From Tetramitus jugosus (Eukaryota > Heterolobosea > Eutetramitea > Acrasida > Vahlkampfiidae): a DNA stretch of 64,000 nucleotides. The DNA is taken from positions 372,001-436,000 of the forward strand of contig OW569346.1 of NCBI GenBank assembly GCA_937625935.1. The letters run 5' to 3'. How positions within the stretch are numbered: position 1 is the first letter of the stretch; the number at the start of each line of letters is the position of its first letter. Below the pieces are notes generated by a model, which saw only the letters and a program-made list of their open reading frames with translations, made no database searches and was not told the origin of the DNA. Below are positions 30,572 to 40,785 of the stretch, in pieces. Both the position numbers and the translations under genes were made by a program.

Positions 30572-31681
30572 ATGAATGAAGTATTGTTCTCATCTCGTGG
30601 TTGGGGGAAGAATTTTGTTGTCACATCGCACTTCTCAAAGAAGTGGTGTCACCAAAAGCTTGTGAAAAAATCGGATCGAAACACAGAAAGGAAGAAAGAA
30701 CTAGCAAAGAACATGATTGAAAGTTTGCCAGATGATGTTGTGCTCATCATTTTTTACTTTTTGAGTGTGAGTGACTGGCACAATGTTCGACTCGTGAACA
30801 AATCATGGAGTTTGTTTCGATTGACGAGTCACAATCATCTCTGGTCGTCTTTATTTGCTTCGGCAGTCTCACGTCCTCGCTATGAACCAATAAAATCAAG
30901 TTTCTTGGAACAAGTGATCAATGTGAGCATGGATAGAGAAAAACTGTTGATATTGAAGCGCCTGTACGAAACGTATCGAGCAGAGTTGTTGAAGCAACGA
31001 CAGGAAGCCATTTCATCTATTCCACCAGGATTGGATCACAAGAATCATCGATACTTTGGTTCGAATGAATTGGACCAATTTCTAGCTCGCTATCGATCAA
31101 AGAGTGTGTATGAACATGTGAAGGCTGTAGTCGTGGGTGATTCATCGATCGGCAAGACTTGTTTGCAGATCAGATTGGGATGGGGTACATTTCCTGACTT
31201 GTATATTCCAACAATCATGGAGAATCATGAGGTAGTGTCTAATTGGGGTAACTGTACGAGGAACATTGAGTTTTGGGATACAGCTGGAGCAAGCGATTAT
31301 GACATATTGAGACCATTGGTCTATCCAAACACCGATATCTTTTTGATATGTTTTTCAGTGAGTGACCGTCAAAGCTTTGAAAACATTTGGCTCAAATGGA
31401 TGCCAGAAATAATGAAGCACTGGTCAGATGCCATCTTCATCTTAGTAGGAACCAAGGTTGATTTGAGGGAAACACTCCAAAAGTCGGATGCTGTCCTTGA
31501 TTCTGTTGATCCTGAGGAAGCTGAATTTATGGCCAAGTACCATGGTTTTGCTCTTTACATCGAAACGAGTGCCCTCACTGGCCACAATTTAGGAGCAGAG
31601 TTCACTGACACAATTGCCAAATGTTCTCACCTTGCACAAGTTCAAAAGGCAAAACCAAAGAACAAATGTGTCATGTGTTGA
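30572..31681 (+). CDS. F-box protein fused to a GTPase-defective Rho-type GTPase
   Basis: 369 residues, one exon. An F-box sits at about 49-95 (ESLPDDVVLIIFYFLSVSDW, VRLVNKSW, LWSSLF), a linker follows, and a complete Rho domain fills about 182-369. It has a P-loop G189-DSSIGKT196, WDTAGASDYD, TKVD and ETSA, and ends in the CAAX box CVMC, so it should be prenylated. Two positions that ordinary Rho proteins need for hydrolysis are changed: the Gly12 equivalent is Ser191 and the Gln61 equivalent is Ala240 (spacing 49, as in Rac1). The protein is predicted to stay GTP-bound. The F-box would bind Skp1 of an SCF ubiquitin ligase, so the Rho part may serve as a membrane-anchored substrate receptor. 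Confidence 0.88.
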   Translation: MNEVLFSSRGWGKNFVVTSHFSKKWCHQKLVKKSDRNTERKKELAKNMIESLPDDVVLIIFYFLSVSDWHNVRLVNKSWSLFRLTSHNHLWSSLFASAVSRPRYEPIKSSFLEQVINVSMDREKLLILKRLYETYRAELLKQRQEAISSIPPGLDHKNHRYFGSNELDQFLARYRSKSVYEHVKAVVVGDSSIGKTCLQIRLGWGTFPDLYIPTIMENHEVVSNWGNCTRNIEFWDTAGASDYDILRPLVYPNTDIFLICFSVSDRQSFENIWLKWMPEIMKHWSDAIFILVGTKVDLRETLQKSDAVLDSVDPEEAEFMAKYHGFALYIETSALTGHNLGAEFTDTIAKCSHLAQVQKAKPKNKCVMC

Positions 31682-31902: not shown

Positions 31903-32925
31903 ATGGCACTCGCAGTCGTACGAATCCCAGAAGAAGTTTCCAACGCCTTTGCAGAAGCAAGAACCGGTGATCATGTTCGTTTTCTCCGCCTCTCCATTGA
32001 CATTACAACGGACGAAAATACTCCGACTCTTGTTTTGGAGCACACTCAAAATGGTACACAGAGCTTTTCCACTGATTTTGACTCATTGGCCAACCAGATC
32101 CAAGATGCCAACAAGCCCTATTTTTTCACCGTAAGATTGGAAGATCCAAGTGAATGGGTGCTCGTATGGTACGTTCCTGACTCTTCCAAAGTCAGACAAA
32201 AAATGCTCTTCTCCAGTGCGGTCAATCACTTGAAGAACTCTCTGGGTAATCAATACCTCATTAGTGATTATCACACGACTGCTGTGAGTGAGTTGAGTCA
32301 TCGTGAATTTTTGCGTGGTTGGACTCATCCTAGCAAGAGAAGTGAAGTGAATCCTGATTTGATGACAGAGAAGGAGAAGATTGATGCAGAGGAGAGATCC
32401 AGTGGTCATGTTCACTTTAGTGGACCTACCAAGGTTGGTGTCCATGGATTGGATTTGCCTGCTACGGAGCAAGCACAGAATCGATTGCAACAGTTTGCGA
32501 ATGGATCAGTTTCTCATGTCGGTTTGACAATTGACAGTGAGAGAGAATTGATTTCGTTGATTACTGAGCAGGATGCAACCACTGTTGATGAGTTGAAGAA
32601 TTTTGTGTCGGCAACAGAGCCTAGCTATCACTTGTTCTCATTCCAGAAGCAAGTGTTCTTTGTGTACGCATGTCCAACTCAGTCAAAGGTCAAGCAAAGA
32701 ATGATCTACTCTGCCACAAAGAGTTCCATTGTTGGTTATGTGGCCAGTTTGGGCATCAATGTCGACAGAAGTGTCGAAGTGTCTGATCCAGAGGATTTGA
32801 CTGAGGATACCTTGTTGCCTCAAGATACCTCTGCTCTCAATCAGATCCAAAAGGTGACAAAGCCAAAGAGACCTGGTCGTGGTGCTGCCAGAGTCAGCAA
32901 AGCAACTGATTCAAACGACAATTAA
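31903..32925 (+). CDS. TWF: Twinfilin (two ADF-homology domains)
   Basis: 340 residues, matching the twinfilin length. Two ADF/cofilin-like domains are seen: about 1-135 (with YFFTVRLEDPSEWVLVWYVP, then SSKVRQKMLFSSA) and about 170-305 (with YHLFSFQKQVFFVYACPTQS, then KVKQRMIYSATKSS). The KVRQKM/KVKQRM long-helix motif in each is the actin-binding helix. A short basic tail (KPKRPGRGAARVSK) follows, corresponding to the capping-protein/PIP2-binding tail of twinfilins. Twinfilin sequesters actin monomers and promotes filament end depolymerisation with capping protein, fitting a crawling amoeba. The gene follows the F-box/Rho gene on the same strand after 221 bp. Confidence 0.92.
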   Translation: MALAVVRIPEEVSNAFAEARTGDHVRFLRLSIDITTDENTPTLVLEHTQNGTQSFSTDFDSLANQIQDANKPYFFTVRLEDPSEWVLVWYVPDSSKVRQKMLFSSAVNHLKNSLGNQYLISDYHTTAVSELSHREFLRGWTHPSKRSEVNPDLMTEKEKIDAEERSSGHVHFSGPTKVGVHGLDLPATEQAQNRLQQFANGSVSHVGLTIDSERELISLITEQDATTVDELKNFVSATEPSYHLFSFQKQVFFVYACPTQSKVKQRMIYSATKSSIVGYVASLGINVDRSVEVSDPEDLTEDTLLPQDTSALNQIQKVTKPKRPGRGAARVSKATDSNDN

Positions 32926-35027: not shown

Positions 35028-36845
35028 ATGGGTAATAATCAAAATAAAGCTCGCTCCCCCAGAGGTGCTCTGACAAAGCTCATTGCCAACCTGCATGTAA
35101 GAAACGATCGTACTGAAAACGATCTGACTTCTACATCCTCATCATCTTCTTCGAGTTCCTCTGGTTCTCCACCGAACCACGCATCGAATGACAATCGGAA
35201 AAAGAGAGTCATTCTGCTTGGTACTGGATCTGTTGGCAAGACTACCCTGTTCAAGATATTTGATCACCTGTTGGAGATTGACATGTTGATGCCAGCTGCC
35301 TACAATGACTCATCTAGTTCCTTTGCTCAAGGAATGCCTCTCGAGTCCAAAATGTCTCACCAGGTCACAACAACAACAGCAGCAACAACAGCAACAACGG
35401 CTATTACTCCTGCTAGCACATCAAAGACAAGGTCTCTGGAAGAACAATTGAACAAGCAAGTGAATCATCGAAGCAGTAGCAACAACAAGCAAGGAATAAG
35501 CAAGGAGTGGCATCAGCCAATCAAGTACTGCTTGGAAACAAGGGCCTCCTACCGAGAAATCTGTATGGGAAATGTCATGACATTGCTCATTCCTCTGTGT
35601 ACACAAGCTCTCTCTAGCATCAATTTTGAACATGAAGATTCTAGAGAAACTGCATTGATTGTGGCCAATATGAGTCTCTATTCAGTGACAAGAGTGTGTG
35701 GCATGGAGGACTTTGAGGATTTGATTCAACGGATTTATAAAATGTGGACAACTGAACCCGAGTTCAGGACACTGTTAATTGAAGGACAGTACACTTCGAG
35801 GTTGCTGTCTGATCTCATCAATGAAAATGTTTATTTTCTGGACAGGCTGACTCAATTGTTAGATCTCAATCATATCACAGAGGATGTGGGTATGCGGTTA
35901 AAGATCAAGACAACTGGACTGCCATCTTGCGAGGGCACATGGAATGGAATGGGTGTCGAAGTGTTCGATACTGGAGGTCAGAGAAATGAGAGAAAGAAGT
36001 GGAGAGCCGTGGTTCCTACTACACAAGCTGTTGTGATCCCTATATCACTCAAGGAGTATTACATGGTGTGTTATGAGGACAACACAACCAATAGGACAGA
36101 AGAGGCAATGCAATTGGTTCAAGCACTGATGGAGAGCTCCCGTGCACCATCTCTCAACTTCTTCTTTGTGTTTACTCATTTTGATTTGTTCAAGAAGCAC
36201 TTGTCAGTCAAGGATATGAGTGATGCGTTTGATGATTTGCCAGAAGAGTTGCGTCAGACAGAGAGCAATCGCTATTCATGCTTGCACATGTCTATGTTGC
36301 CTTTTGATCCTGTAGATGAATCAAGTGCAGCTCAAGAGAAACCAAAGACACCTGTGTTCGATCTTACTGGCTTGAGTGATGACCTGCTAGTTCACATTTG
36401 TACATTCCTCCATCCAAGACACTTGATACCTTTCAGTCTTGCCAATTTCCACTTTTACAAGGTGGCAAACAGCGATCGAGTGTGGTCTTCTTATTGCAAG
36501 AAACTTCATCCTGACCTCACAGACCAACAAGTGGACTATGTGCTAAATAACAGTGAAGTCTTGAGAAAGAGTTTTATTGCTCCAATTGGTGAGCTGCGTT
36601 CTCCAGCCAGAGCCCAGAACTACAAGTATTACTTCAAGACTGGTGGATATATGGCTGTCAAAAATCTGGAGTTTATGATGCAAAAGTATCTGAGTTTGGC
36701 TCCTGCCAAGGTAGCTCAATCCACCTATGTTGTGAATGCTATCAATGTGTACGAGACTCGTTATCTCTGCATCAAAATTTTGGATTTCTTAGAGACCACA
36801 ACAACCTCAACCACACCTTCTCCACGTTCATCCAAAACACGGTAG
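35028..36845 (+). CDS. G-protein alpha subunit with an F-box inserted in the GTPase domain
   Basis: 605 residues, one exon, starting MGNN (possible myristoylation). The Ras-like core begins at residue 58: KKRVILLGTGSVGKTT (P-loop Gly65-Thr72). A Ser/Thr/Gln spacer and an all-helical region like the G-alpha helical domain follow. Switch I reads KIKTTG, with Lys292 in place of the catalytic Arg. Switch II reads DTGGQRNERKKW and keeps Gln318. The base-recognition motif NKxD is THFD. Then, at about 444-495, comes an F-box (LTGLSDDLLVHICTFLHP, VWSSYCKKLHPD). After it the G-alpha fold resumes with YKYYFKTGGYM and a TCAT-equivalent VNAI. The receptor-coupling C-terminal helix is replaced by a Thr/Ser tail. 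It is likely an SCF adaptor built on a degenerate G-alpha. Confidence 0.82.
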   Translation: MGNNQNKARSPRGALTKLIANLHVRNDRTENDLTSTSSSSSSSSSGSPPNHASNDNRKKRVILLGTGSVGKTTLFKIFDHLLEIDMLMPAAYNDSSSSFAQGMPLESKMSHQVTTTTAATTATTAITPASTSKTRSLEEQLNKQVNHRSSSNNKQGISKEWHQPIKYCLETRASYREICMGNVMTLLIPLCTQALSSINFEHEDSRETALIVANMSLYSVTRVCGMEDFEDLIQRIYKMWTTEPEFRTLLIEGQYTSRLLSDLINENVYFLDRLTQLLDLNHITEDVGMRLKIKTTGLPSCEGTWNGMGVEVFDTGGQRNERKKWRAVVPTTQAVVIPISLKEYYMVCYEDNTTNRTEEAMQLVQALMESSRAPSLNFFFVFTHFDLFKKHLSVKDMSDAFDDLPEELRQTESNRYSCLHMSMLPFDPVDESSAAQEKPKTPVFDLTGLSDDLLVHICTFLHPRHLIPFSLANFHFYKVANSDRVWSSYCKKLHPDLTDQQVDYVLNNSEVLRKSFIAPIGELRSPARAQNYKYYFKTGGYMAVKNLEFMMQKYLSLAPAKVAQSTYVVNAINVYETRYLCIKILDFLETTTTSTTPSPRSSKTR

Positions 36846-38026: not shown

Positions 38027-40727
38027 TTTTTTTTTTTTTTTTTTTAATACAACCATTTCGGTTGCTCACTTTATTCTCAATACATTTTCATCAGCCATCG
38101 CTCTTTGAGCGATGGCTCTTGGTCGTCTGATTAATTCCCAATGACGCTCGCAGAGCGTCATTGCTGTTGTTTCGCTTTTGTTGCGGTGAAGAGGTGAAGG
38201 AGAGTCGTGAGACATCTCCGTTTCACCCCATTCACAAAGGTTCTTGCTTTCTTACCGGCTTCTGTTGTTTTGATCCCAGTCGCTACCAGTCCGTTGGTGA
38301 CCTCTTCGGTGGCGTTTGTTTCTATGCCCATCATACCCTTCAGAAATTCTCTACTCGTCCGTCGCAAAGGACGCCTTTCCATCTTGCCATCCTTCAGTCG
38401 CACATTATCGAACCATATGTCGATACAGGACACACCCATGCTGGTAAGCTCCTTACTGACTGTCAAGGCTAGACATCTTCTTGCATACACAGCCCTTGAG
38501 CATCGAATAAGGCAGTGCAGCACACTTTCGGGTTCTTTGTTACACCAGACACACATCGAGGGCTCGGTGCCAGTGTTATAAAGACACCGAACAACTTCCT
38601 CCGTGTGGAGAGTACCACTTCTGACTTGAAGCTGGAACCATTCCAGCCTTCTGTCAACAACGTGTGGGTACTTGAGAAAGCTGAAGTCTGCGCCGCTGTA
38701 GTTGGCATCTTTTTGAATCCACCAACGCTCGCTCGTCTCTACACGTGCATTTCTCTCCTGATCAAACAGGGACTGCAGGTGTTCTCTACTCTCGACTCTG
38801 AGGTTACCCTTGTACAGAGCAGGTTCATTTTTAGTGGAGTTTTGGCTTATGGGACACTGACAGGTCCTCATTTGCGCCATCAAAATGTTCAGTATTTGGT
38901 GCGATTTTGCACCTATCCTACATTTTGGGAATAGTTTCTTGAATTCTTTGAAACAGATGGGATGTTCCTCTACAAGCAGTTGATTGCGGCTGACTATACC
39001 TGAGAGGTAGAGTTTTTTGAGGATGGTGGATGGTACGTACCTTGCCAATCTACACTCATCACACTGCGTAGTTGTACCTACAGTTAATCTGATCCCATGT
39101 GCATGCATCCTGATGGCACACCACTTGTGGTAAGTTGACACGACATACTCGAGTCTGTTGCTTGACTGAAATACATTCTCTTGTTGGAATGTTTGGTGGA
39201 GCTTGATGTCCTCAAGCGTGTCAAGGAACAGCCTACGAGCTTCAGTGTCTCTCTTACCGTTGATCATTGAGAACACAAACCATCCAGTCTGCGTCGCAAT
39301 TGTCTCTTCAATGTCCTTTAGTCCTACTGACCCGAGCTCAAAGCCGATGGACAGCAGCTCAGTCGGGAACCTCTTCATTGCCTTCGACCCGAACTTCACT
39401 AATGATCTTCCCAGTGCATTAACTTTGTTCAACCACTCAGCTGTCCAGTCAGTAAACTCTGATGCATAAGCGAATATAGGATGGATGCACGTGTTCACCA
39501 CCCGACTCACTTGTCTTGCGGTGAGTCTCATTACTTTGAGCCGAACAACCACCCTCTGTGCCTTTTGCCACGCTTGTTCTCTCTGTTTCTGGGTTGCACC
39601 CTTGAGATTCGTGTACAGACCCAGCGCACGAAACACCTGCCTGTTGTTTCTCCCCACCACCTTTGTGCCATCCACAGTAATGTCGTTCGATGACTTATTG
39701 TCCACTTTTCTGACGTAAAGTTCCAACTTGTCAGGATGCATTGTCATTCGGAGCCAACCCAAAGCGGTAGACATTGCTTTGGCGGCAATTTCAATGTCCT
39801 CCCTGGATTCAGCAAACAGATTACAGTCATCCACGTACGCAGCATTCCAGAGTCTCTGAGTCATCGCGCCAAATCCTTTCACTTGACTTTTCACATACAA
39901 CAAAACCACTTGGTGCACCAGTATGTAGGTAGTGGGTGATAGTGAATCACCCTGTCTCGTACCCTTTCCTATTCTAAACCTTCTCGAAAGCGAAGAGGTC
40001 AAGACTCGCGCATGATTGTCACGCACCATACCACTGACAAGTTTCACTATTCCCTCAGGAAAACCAAAGAATCTATATACAGCTTCTATAGCGTTGTGCG
40101 GGACCGAGTCGAAAGCCTTGGTAATGTCCGTCAACAAAAGGTACAATTGCTTGTCATGACGGTTGGCACAGTCAATGACACCCCTTATCAAGGACAGTTT
40201 CTCCCTGATATCTCGAAATTTTCGTCCTCCCCCTTGAACATTCGTAAACACACCTCCTTCCTCTGCCGCCTTCGAGATGCGTTGATTCAAAAGCTTAGTG
40301 TAAAGCTTAGACAACGAACTAAGAAGGCAAATAGGACGATAGTTCTCTGGTCGTGTGACGTCCCCTTTCTTGTAGGCAGGGATGATCACACACTCCTTCC
40401 ACGCTCTCGGGAACTTGCCGGTAGTAGTGATGTTGTTGAAGAAGTTGCAGAGAGTCTCTGCCAATTCCCACCTGAAGTCTCTTTTCTTGGTGCGAGGGAG
40501 TTTGACCATCTCGTTATGAACACCGTCAGCACCTGGGCACTTTCTGTTCCTTAACCATCTGATTGCTTCCGCGACTTCCTCTGTCTTGAAAGGTTGGATA
40601 GCTGTCCTCAGTTTGTGTTTATCGCTTCGACTATCCATCAGTGCAAGGAAGCCCATGCTAGCTTTATCCTTCTTGAATGCCTCTTCGTAATAGTCAGCTG
40701 CTACTTCACCAACTATATGAGGATCTG
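38027..40727 (-). mobile_element. Non-LTR (LINE-type) retrotransposon copy B, 5'-truncated, open frame intact
   Basis: About 2.7 kb between two copies of a 17-bp direct repeat, with a roughly 20-nt poly-A tail (poly-T on the plus strand, up to 38045) at its 3' end. It carries a complete reverse transcriptase and C-terminal Cys/His region but no endonuclease, so it was truncated at the 5' end on insertion. The open frame has no stop, which means the insertion is recent. It landed in or at the edge of the older copy A. Homology to A and C (50392-50717) shows a family active more than once at this locus. Confidence 0.88.
38050..38162 (-). other. Three hairpins in the 3' UTR of copy B
   Basis: Perfect stems: 38140-38149 with 38153-38162 (10 bp, loop 3, overlapping the stop codon), 38093-38103 with 38107-38117 (11 bp, loop 3), and 38050-38054 with 38060-38064 (5 bp, next to the poly-A). 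Such 3' hairpins are bound by the element's own reverse transcriptase in several LINE families. Copies A and C have counterparts. Confidence 0.7.
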
Positions 40728-40785
40728 TTCCGGGTGGACCGCTTGCGCGGCAGACGTCCAATTTTGTTGATTTTACAAGGAGCAT
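38158..40785 (-). CDS. Reverse transcriptase open frame of copy B
   Basis: 875 codons with no stop. The reverse transcriptase core has RKCPGADGVHNEM, PAYKKGDVTRPENYRPICLL, LTDITKAFDSVPH, GKGTRQGDSLSPTTYIL and the catalytic AYVDD (Tyr at about residue 317). It is followed by a long C-terminal region with CDECRLARYVPSTIL and a Cys/His cluster CVWCNKEPESVLHCLIRC of the zf-RVT kind. No apurinic endonuclease or RNase H is visible. The ATG used (40785) and about the first 19 codons belong to the flanking target sequence; element sequence starts at about codon 20. So the native start was lost with the 5' end and this frame is a read-through. Confidence 0.88.
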   Translation of the reverse strand: MLLVKSTKLDVCRASGPPGTDPHIVGEVAADYYEEAFKKDKASMGFLALMDSRSDKHKLRTAIQPFKTEEVAEAIRWLRNRKCPGADGVHNEMVKLPRTKKRDFRWELAETLCNFFNNITTTGKFPRAWKECVIIPAYKKGDVTRPENYRPICLLSSLSKLYTKLLNQRISKAAEEGGVFTNVQGGGRKFRDIREKLSLIRGVIDCANRHDKQLYLLLTDITKAFDSVPHNAIEAVYRFFGFPEGIVKLVSGMVRDNHARVLTSSLSRRFRIGKGTRQGDSLSPTTYILVHQVVLLYVKSQVKGFGAMTQRLWNAAYVDDCNLFAESREDIEIAAKAMSTALGWLRMTMHPDKLELYVRKVDNKSSNDITVDGTKVVGRNNRQVFRALGLYTNLKGATQKQREQAWQKAQRVVVRLKVMRLTARQVSRVVNTCIHPIFAYASEFTDWTAEWLNKVNALGRSLVKFGSKAMKRFPTELLSIGFELGSVGLKDIEETIATQTGWFVFSMINGKRDTEARRLFLDTLEDIKLHQTFQQENVFQSSNRLEYVVSTYHKWCAIRMHAHGIRLTVGTTTQCDECRLARYVPSTILKKLYLSGIVSRNQLLVEEHPICFKEFKKLFPKCRIGAKSHQILNILMAQMRTCQCPISQNSTKNEPALYKGNLRVESREHLQSLFDQERNARVETSERWWIQKDANYSGADFSFLKYPHVVDRRLEWFQLQVRSGTLHTEEVVRCLYNTGTEPSMCVWCNKEPESVLHCLIRCSRAVYARRCLALTVSKELTSMGVSCIDIWFDNVRLKDGKMERRPLRRTSREFLKGMMGIETNATEEVTNGLVATGIKTTEAGKKARTFVNGVKRRCLTTLLHLFTATKAKQQQ
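40728..40744. repeat. Right target-site duplication of copy B
   Basis: Exact copy of the 17-mer at 38010-38026, at the 5' boundary of copy B. Confidence 0.8.

Follow-up and report, generated by a model that had tools for sequence, protein, structure and literature searches.

A predicted G-alpha subunit with a nested F-box in Tetramitus jugosus

A stretch of 64,000 nucleotides of the Tetramitus jugosus genome (contig OW569346.1, positions 372,001–436,000; hereafter the window) contains a gene at 35028–36845 on the + strand whose product (P0001) is, as judged from alignments and a structural model, a G-alpha family member with an F-box nested inside the G-alpha fold. The gene is read as a single open frame, 605 codons long, free of internal stops and 100% identical to the genome's contigs, and both domains lie within it, as an original prediction made from the sequence alone had stated. 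A single polypeptide thus holds a G-alpha and an F-box in a nested rather than an end-to-end fusion, and this layout recurs in a multigene family of the same genome as well as in two proteins that come from elsewhere. To our knowledge, G-protein signalling and Skp1–cullin–F-box (SCF) ubiquitin ligases are separate machines in well-studied organisms and meet via other proteins. The family described here may couple the signals of G proteins to the destruction of proteins, offers a ready-made system for asking if a G-alpha acts as a substrate receptor and if its nucleotide state controls a ligase, and marks the alphaG-alpha4 loop as a site tolerant of domain insertion. We found no description of a G-alpha with an F-box in the open-access literature, judged mainly by titles and the starts of abstracts.

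Architecture of the gene and its insert

The G-alpha assignment is carried by a match to PF00503 over residues 50–406 (E = 1.1e-34, 120.6 bits against a cut-off of 48.8; hmmscan), and transducin/Gi chimeras are the best PDB sequence relatives. The Ras-like fold, the inserted helical domain and the C-terminal alpha5 are all present. Scores of the predicted local distance difference test (pLDDT) average 71.3 over the AlphaFold2 model of the 605-residue protein. The features are as follows, all on the + strand.

35028..36845, G-alpha with inserted F-box (P0001), single-frame gene, 605 amino acids (open frame, Pfam, model)
35028..35198, N-terminal extension, residues 1–57, starting MGNNQNK (sequence; mostly low pLDDT)
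35220..35243, P-loop GTGSVGKT, residues 65–72 (motif reading, alignment)
35286..35498, Thr/Ser-rich low-complexity stretch lying between alpha1 and the helical domain, residues 87–157 (pLDDT < 50; varies relative to P0002)
35901..35903, Lys292 at the catalytic Arg position, followed by IKTTG (PDB match, motif reading, alignment)
35967..36002, intact switch II DTGGQRNERKKW, residues 314–325 (alignments)
36174..36185, THFD, the NKxD equivalent, residues 383–386, Asp kept (motif reading, alignment)
36258..36620, insert in the alphaG-alpha4 loop, about residues 411–531 (alignment, structure)
36366..36506, predicted F-box, residues ~447–493 (Pfam, genome profile search, model, profile and fold match)
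36522..36572, two short helices past the F-box, residues 499–515 (model; conserved in part among family members)
36645..36692, alpha4 of the G-alpha core, residues 540–555, with the family motif YKYYFxxGG just before it (alignments, model)
36717..36743, beta6 and the TCAT equivalent VNAI, residues 564–572 (model, motif reading)
36747..36809, alpha5, residues 574–594, with a Thr/Ser-rich distal part (model, structure alignment)

Several lines of evidence point to an F-box. First, PF12937 matches residues 451–491 (E = 6.9e-4, 19.8 bits by hmmscan, short of the curated cut-off of 24.3), and in a six-frame profile search of the genome the same segment scores 25.2 bits, above that cut-off. Secondly, a profile built jointly from the insert and the G-alpha C-terminus of six other family members gives 101 bits for this stretch, compared to 6.3 bits for the best of 1000 shuffles and 12.5 bits for the best canonical G-alpha. 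Thirdly, the AlphaFold2 model places F-box helices at residues 451–458, 463–472, 474–480 and 483–493, and a model of the F-box alone has pLDDT > 90 across its residues 11–60 and resembles F-box chains in Foldseek with probability up to 1.00. The nesting that had been proposed is thus borne out, and the F-box does lie near residues 444–495 as suggested, although its core spans ~447–493 and sits within a larger insert of ~411–531.

Alignments and the model put the insertion point in the alphaG-alpha4 loop, past the NKxD-like motif and ahead of the TCAT-like one, in agreement with the earlier placement between THFD and VNAI. In the aligned F-box proteins the order is the alphaG end (AFPD-like), a linker, the F-box, a variable stretch, a YKxYFxxGG-like motif and alpha4, whereas in the seven F-box-free G-alphas of the genome whose frames were read alpha4 follows the alphaG end after a short loop. 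The Rho insert helix and the i4-loop insert of Gs occupy the same place, between beta5/alphaG and alpha4; these are a helix or about a dozen residues, unlike the whole-domain insert here. Past the insert the modelled G-alpha core resumes with alpha4 (540–555), beta6 (564–568) and alpha5 (574–594). The C-terminal helix that contacts receptors had been reported missing, but alpha5 is present and aligns with solved G-alphas to about residue 349 (Gi numbering), with the distal tip alone being Thr/Ser rich. Because this tip touches the receptor in animals, activation of the window G-alpha by a receptor seems unlikely.

Comparison with known systems separates what is shared from what is new. With other G-alpha subunits (PF00503; Gi, Gq, G12/13, Arabidopsis GPA1 and those of Naegleria fowleri, PMC9283941) the protein shares the Ras-like and helical-domain fold, the P-loop, switch I KTTG, switch II DTGGQRNERKKW and alpha5; it differs in the ~120-residue F-box insert, in Lys for the catalytic Arg, in THFD and in the altered alpha5 tip. 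With SCF F-box receptors (FBXO3, FBXW7, Skp2) it shares the F-box helices and consensus, as seen from the profile match and fold resemblance, but its F-box is nested in a globular domain, and partners would be bound by a G-alpha, not by a WD40, leucine-rich repeat (LRR) or similar domain.

A family with the same layout

Searches for other G-alpha proteins with the same insert bring the number with an F-box at this place to eight, the window protein included; these are listed here with one near-identical copy.

C28:307.6-309.0k, same layout, same genome
C50:65.7-67.7k, same layout, same genome
C13:291-293k (C13:292k), same layout, same genome
C13:433.7-435.4k (C13:434k), same layout, same genome
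C6:178.3-180.1k, same layout with a badly decayed GTPase core, same genome
P0003, EukProt, 798 amino acids, two tandem G-alpha-like domains, the second with the F-box insert
P0027, JGI metagenome, 438 amino acids, insert present, 34% identity to window residues 250–590
P0002, JGI metagenome, near-identical copy of the window gene

The genome search covered 26.3 Mb in 56 contigs. By manual grouping, with two Arf-like places excluded, 23 loci have a G-alpha match above the cut-off; five of these carry the insert, and its absence was read in seven of the other 18. The C6 locus is a sixth with an F-box, and has no G-alpha match above the cut-off. The protein searches scored the candidates sharing most words (7990 for the whole frame, 7996 for the family alignment); since the whole-frame list may have been filled by Ser/Thr runs, the search was repeated with residues 250–590 and with the family alignment. 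With only those candidates scored, some family members of other protists may have escaped notice. By hmmscan the curated F-box-like cut-off is passed in four of the eight members (P0027, C13:292k, C28 and P0003); C13:434k has only a weak match to PF00646 (E = 0.13), and the C6 insert is F-box-like at 17.4 bits. That related genes share this layout suggests a genuine family and not a single oddity.

Comparison of P0001 with P0002 reveals eight substitutions plus gaps, all confined to the N-terminal part, the low-complexity sequence, the linkers and the insert's edges. None fall in core residues 158–410 (0/253) or in 532–593 (0/62), and the single change among the 53 residues of 441–493 is at the first; this pattern, at the protein level and in one close pair, fits a protein kept as a whole. 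These observations bear on the alternative of an ordinary G-alpha, in which an unspliced intron or a chance resemblance would have been mistaken for an F-box. The modest Pfam score of the window F-box on its own would favor this, but all eight proteins carry the insert as open, homologous sequence, which argues against its removal by splicing and leads us to reject a splicing artefact. Chance resemblance is rejected on the profile test against 1000 shuffles, the profile there spanning the insert together with the G-alpha C-terminus. The insert is also predicted to fold as an F-box, it is nearly unaltered in P0002, and none of the three GTRNGT sites of the frame lie inside it, although this is a narrow pattern and other donor forms are possible. 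We therefore regard an ordinary G-alpha as very improbable.

The history of the family was approached with a tree of 38 rows of G-alpha cores from which the insert was cut out, and which does not include C13:434k. The F-box rows form one clade in 0% of bootstrap trees with seven rows and in 1% with six (without C6). Trees constrained to one clade are slightly better in likelihood (by 0.40 and 5.93 units) and are not rejected by the approximately unbiased (AU) test (p-AU 0.506 for seven rows, 0.668 for six). The window gene, C28, P0027 and C50 group together with support of 93/24, and several branches in the tree are long.

Active-site residues and a possible role in ubiquitination

By alignment, the P-loop GTGSVGKT, KTTG, DTGGQRNERKKW with the switch II Gln318, and Asp386 are all unaltered in the window gene. 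It has Lys292, as had been noted, in place of the catalytic Arg, which is R178 in Gi1. The guanine motif NKxD reads THFD, such that Asn is replaced by Thr and Lys by His, with Asp386 kept. The reported loss of the guanine-binding Asn is therefore correct, but it need not be a sign of a dead GTPase, as Thr at this position is normal in the TKxD motif of the Rho family.

The catalytic Arg position varies among the relatives, being Lys in P0027, Gln in P0003, Asn in C50 (read at an exon junction) and either Ala or Ser in C28, where two alignments differ. Arg is retained in both C13 members, and C6 has no confident alignment there, with two alignments in disagreement. Overall, Arg is replaced in five of the eight F-box members (two keep it and one is unalignable) and in four of the seven F-box-free G-alphas read in the genome, with three keeping it. 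Because the F-box-free proteins vary there too, an absent Arg does not set the F-box proteins apart and is rejected as their hallmark, nor does the residue define G-alpha membership here. Decay elsewhere differs by member: the C13 pair has LVGS and LMGS for DxGG, C50 has GGS for GGQ, C28 lacks GGQ, and C6 lacks a normal P-loop. We note that the C13 pair (C13:292065 and C13:434519) has an odd switch II, LVGSQ and LMGSH for DVGGQ, yet keeps both the catalytic Arg and NKxD. By their residues the window protein, P0027 and P0003 look capable of nucleotide binding, although P0027 as listed is without the P-loop region. Diverse nucleotide cycles are known among the N. fowleri G-alphas (PMC9283941).

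The genome also encodes candidate partners, with two Skp1 matches in a profile search, one of them at C12:150688–150831, 13 cullin matches (eight at ≥ 200 bits), two G-gamma matches and 130 matches to regulators of G-protein signalling (RGS), the last resembling the large RGS set of N. fowleri (PMC9283941). We favor, with a probability of about 0.55, the interpretation that the window protein is an SCF substrate receptor whose substrate-binding part is the G-alpha switch. From what was observed (the architecture and the fold predicted for it, the existence of a family, which residues are retained or lost, and SCF parts in the genome) we infer the remaining steps. The protein would be anchored to the membrane through Gly2, a possible N-myristoylation site. 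Its core would bind GTP and, because the catalytic Arg is Lys, hydrolyse it slowly, giving a GTP-biased state. The intact switch II and helical domain would bind the usual G-alpha partners, whether RGS proteins, effectors or G-beta-gamma. The F-box would bind Skp1 and bring a Cul1-type SCF ligase to these partners at the membrane, with their ubiquitination as the likely outcome. The previously proposed link between SCF and G-protein partners is thus plausible, Skp1 and cullin genes being present; the recruitment itself is putative.

Several points weigh against the substrate-receptor interpretation. The small F-box model has no Foldseek match at E ≤ 0.001 (best 0.041), and the window F-box, like those of C50, C6 and C13:434k, is under the curated cut-off by hmmscan. 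The pattern of Arg replacement described above counts in the same direction. The G-alpha core of C6 is not recognised by Pfam and C28 has lost GGQ, which means that not every family member can be a nucleotide switch. The window protein is a predicted one, and its Skp1 binding, its role in ubiquitination and its GTP/GDP, G-beta-gamma and receptor binding are likewise putative.

Three other schemes deserve consideration. The core could be a pseudo-GTPase scaffold, a rigid protein-binding surface joined to Skp1 without nucleotide cycling and with or without a ligase. The window gene's Lys for Arg and TH for NK are compatible with this, as are the C28, C13 and C6 losses given above. However, the same gene has an intact P-loop, KTTG, DTGGQ and guanine-motif Asp, and its core is unchanged at 158–410 between P0001 and P0002, and we think such a scaffold unlikely here. 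With the majority of its nucleotide-binding residues unharmed, the window gene is better described as encoding a GTP-binding protein of weak hydrolytic activity than as a 'pseudo-GTPase', so that of the two options originally offered nucleotide binding is the one retained; the C6 and C28 paralogs do look like pseudo-GTPases. Alternatively, the F-box might act in cis, with the G-alpha and its bound partners ubiquitinated and degraded and the signal thereby short-lived. A weak GTPase with Lys292 for the catalytic Arg would need another off-switch, and many F-box proteins are unstable through autoubiquitination; we nevertheless consider this self-turnover improbable, as both C13 members keep the Arg and the decayed C6 retains an F-box-like insert that self-turnover of a signal does not require. 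Lastly, since the loop that holds the F-box joins the guanine-binding motif to alpha4, it is conceivable that the nucleotide state and partner binding of the G-alpha directly set Skp1 or substrate engagement, such that activating the G protein would itself trigger the degradation of RGS proteins, effectors or G-beta-gamma. We regard a nucleotide-gated receptor of this kind as doubtful.

F-box-GTPase fusions and neighboring genes

A second joining of the two domains is located 3.3 kb upstream of the G-alpha gene, in a separate gene.

30572..31681, +, F-box-Rho GTPase fusion with the F-box at 30716–30856, then a Ras/Rho domain and a C-terminal CVMC (Pfam, genome searches)

This fusion, whose GTPase is of the Rho type, has DTAGAS in place of the usual DTAGQE, and its CVMC resembles a prenylation motif. 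When the genome's F-box and Ras matches are overlaid, with 120 of 160 Ras matches entered so that the counts are lower bounds, at least 12 F-box/Ras pairs lie on one strand within 2 kb. At least eight are same-frame F-box-Ras/Rho fusions, the one in the window among them, and at least four are close pairs not in one frame, with the F-box first in three of the four. Like the window G-alpha gene, the same-frame fusions combine a Ras-superfamily GTPase and an F-box in one frame, but theirs is a separate F-box ahead of a small GTPase (eight of eight same-frame cases among the matches listed). GTPases and F-boxes have thus been joined in at least two ways in this lineage, with the F-box placed either before a small GTPase or within a G-alpha.

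Related combinations appear in the literature. F-boxes with ARF-family GTPases are named among lineage-specific innovations in a passage of PMC8358228 that does not give the position of the F-box, and an F-box review is cited among the GTPase references of PMC8296547, in whose supplement F-box-small-GTPase fusions of Naegleria may already be described. N. fowleri has 13 G-alphas; in the text of PMC9283941 the term 'F-box' occurs zero times, and the domain abbreviations in its Figure 1 legend do not include it.

Two candidates from the insert search, C37:226k and C13:169k, were dropped as family members, neither being among the genome's G-alpha matches. By our own reading, made without a family search, a single frame holds other sequence beside the F-box match in each, protein-kinase-like at C37:225000–229500 and LRR-like at C13:167500–172500. 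Elsewhere in the window, a protein with two cofilin/ADF domains, twinfilin-like, is encoded at 31903–32925 (+), and a long reverse-transcriptase frame at 38158–40785 (−; PF00078, E = 1.9e-26), 1.3 kb downstream of the G-alpha gene, is probably a retrotransposon.
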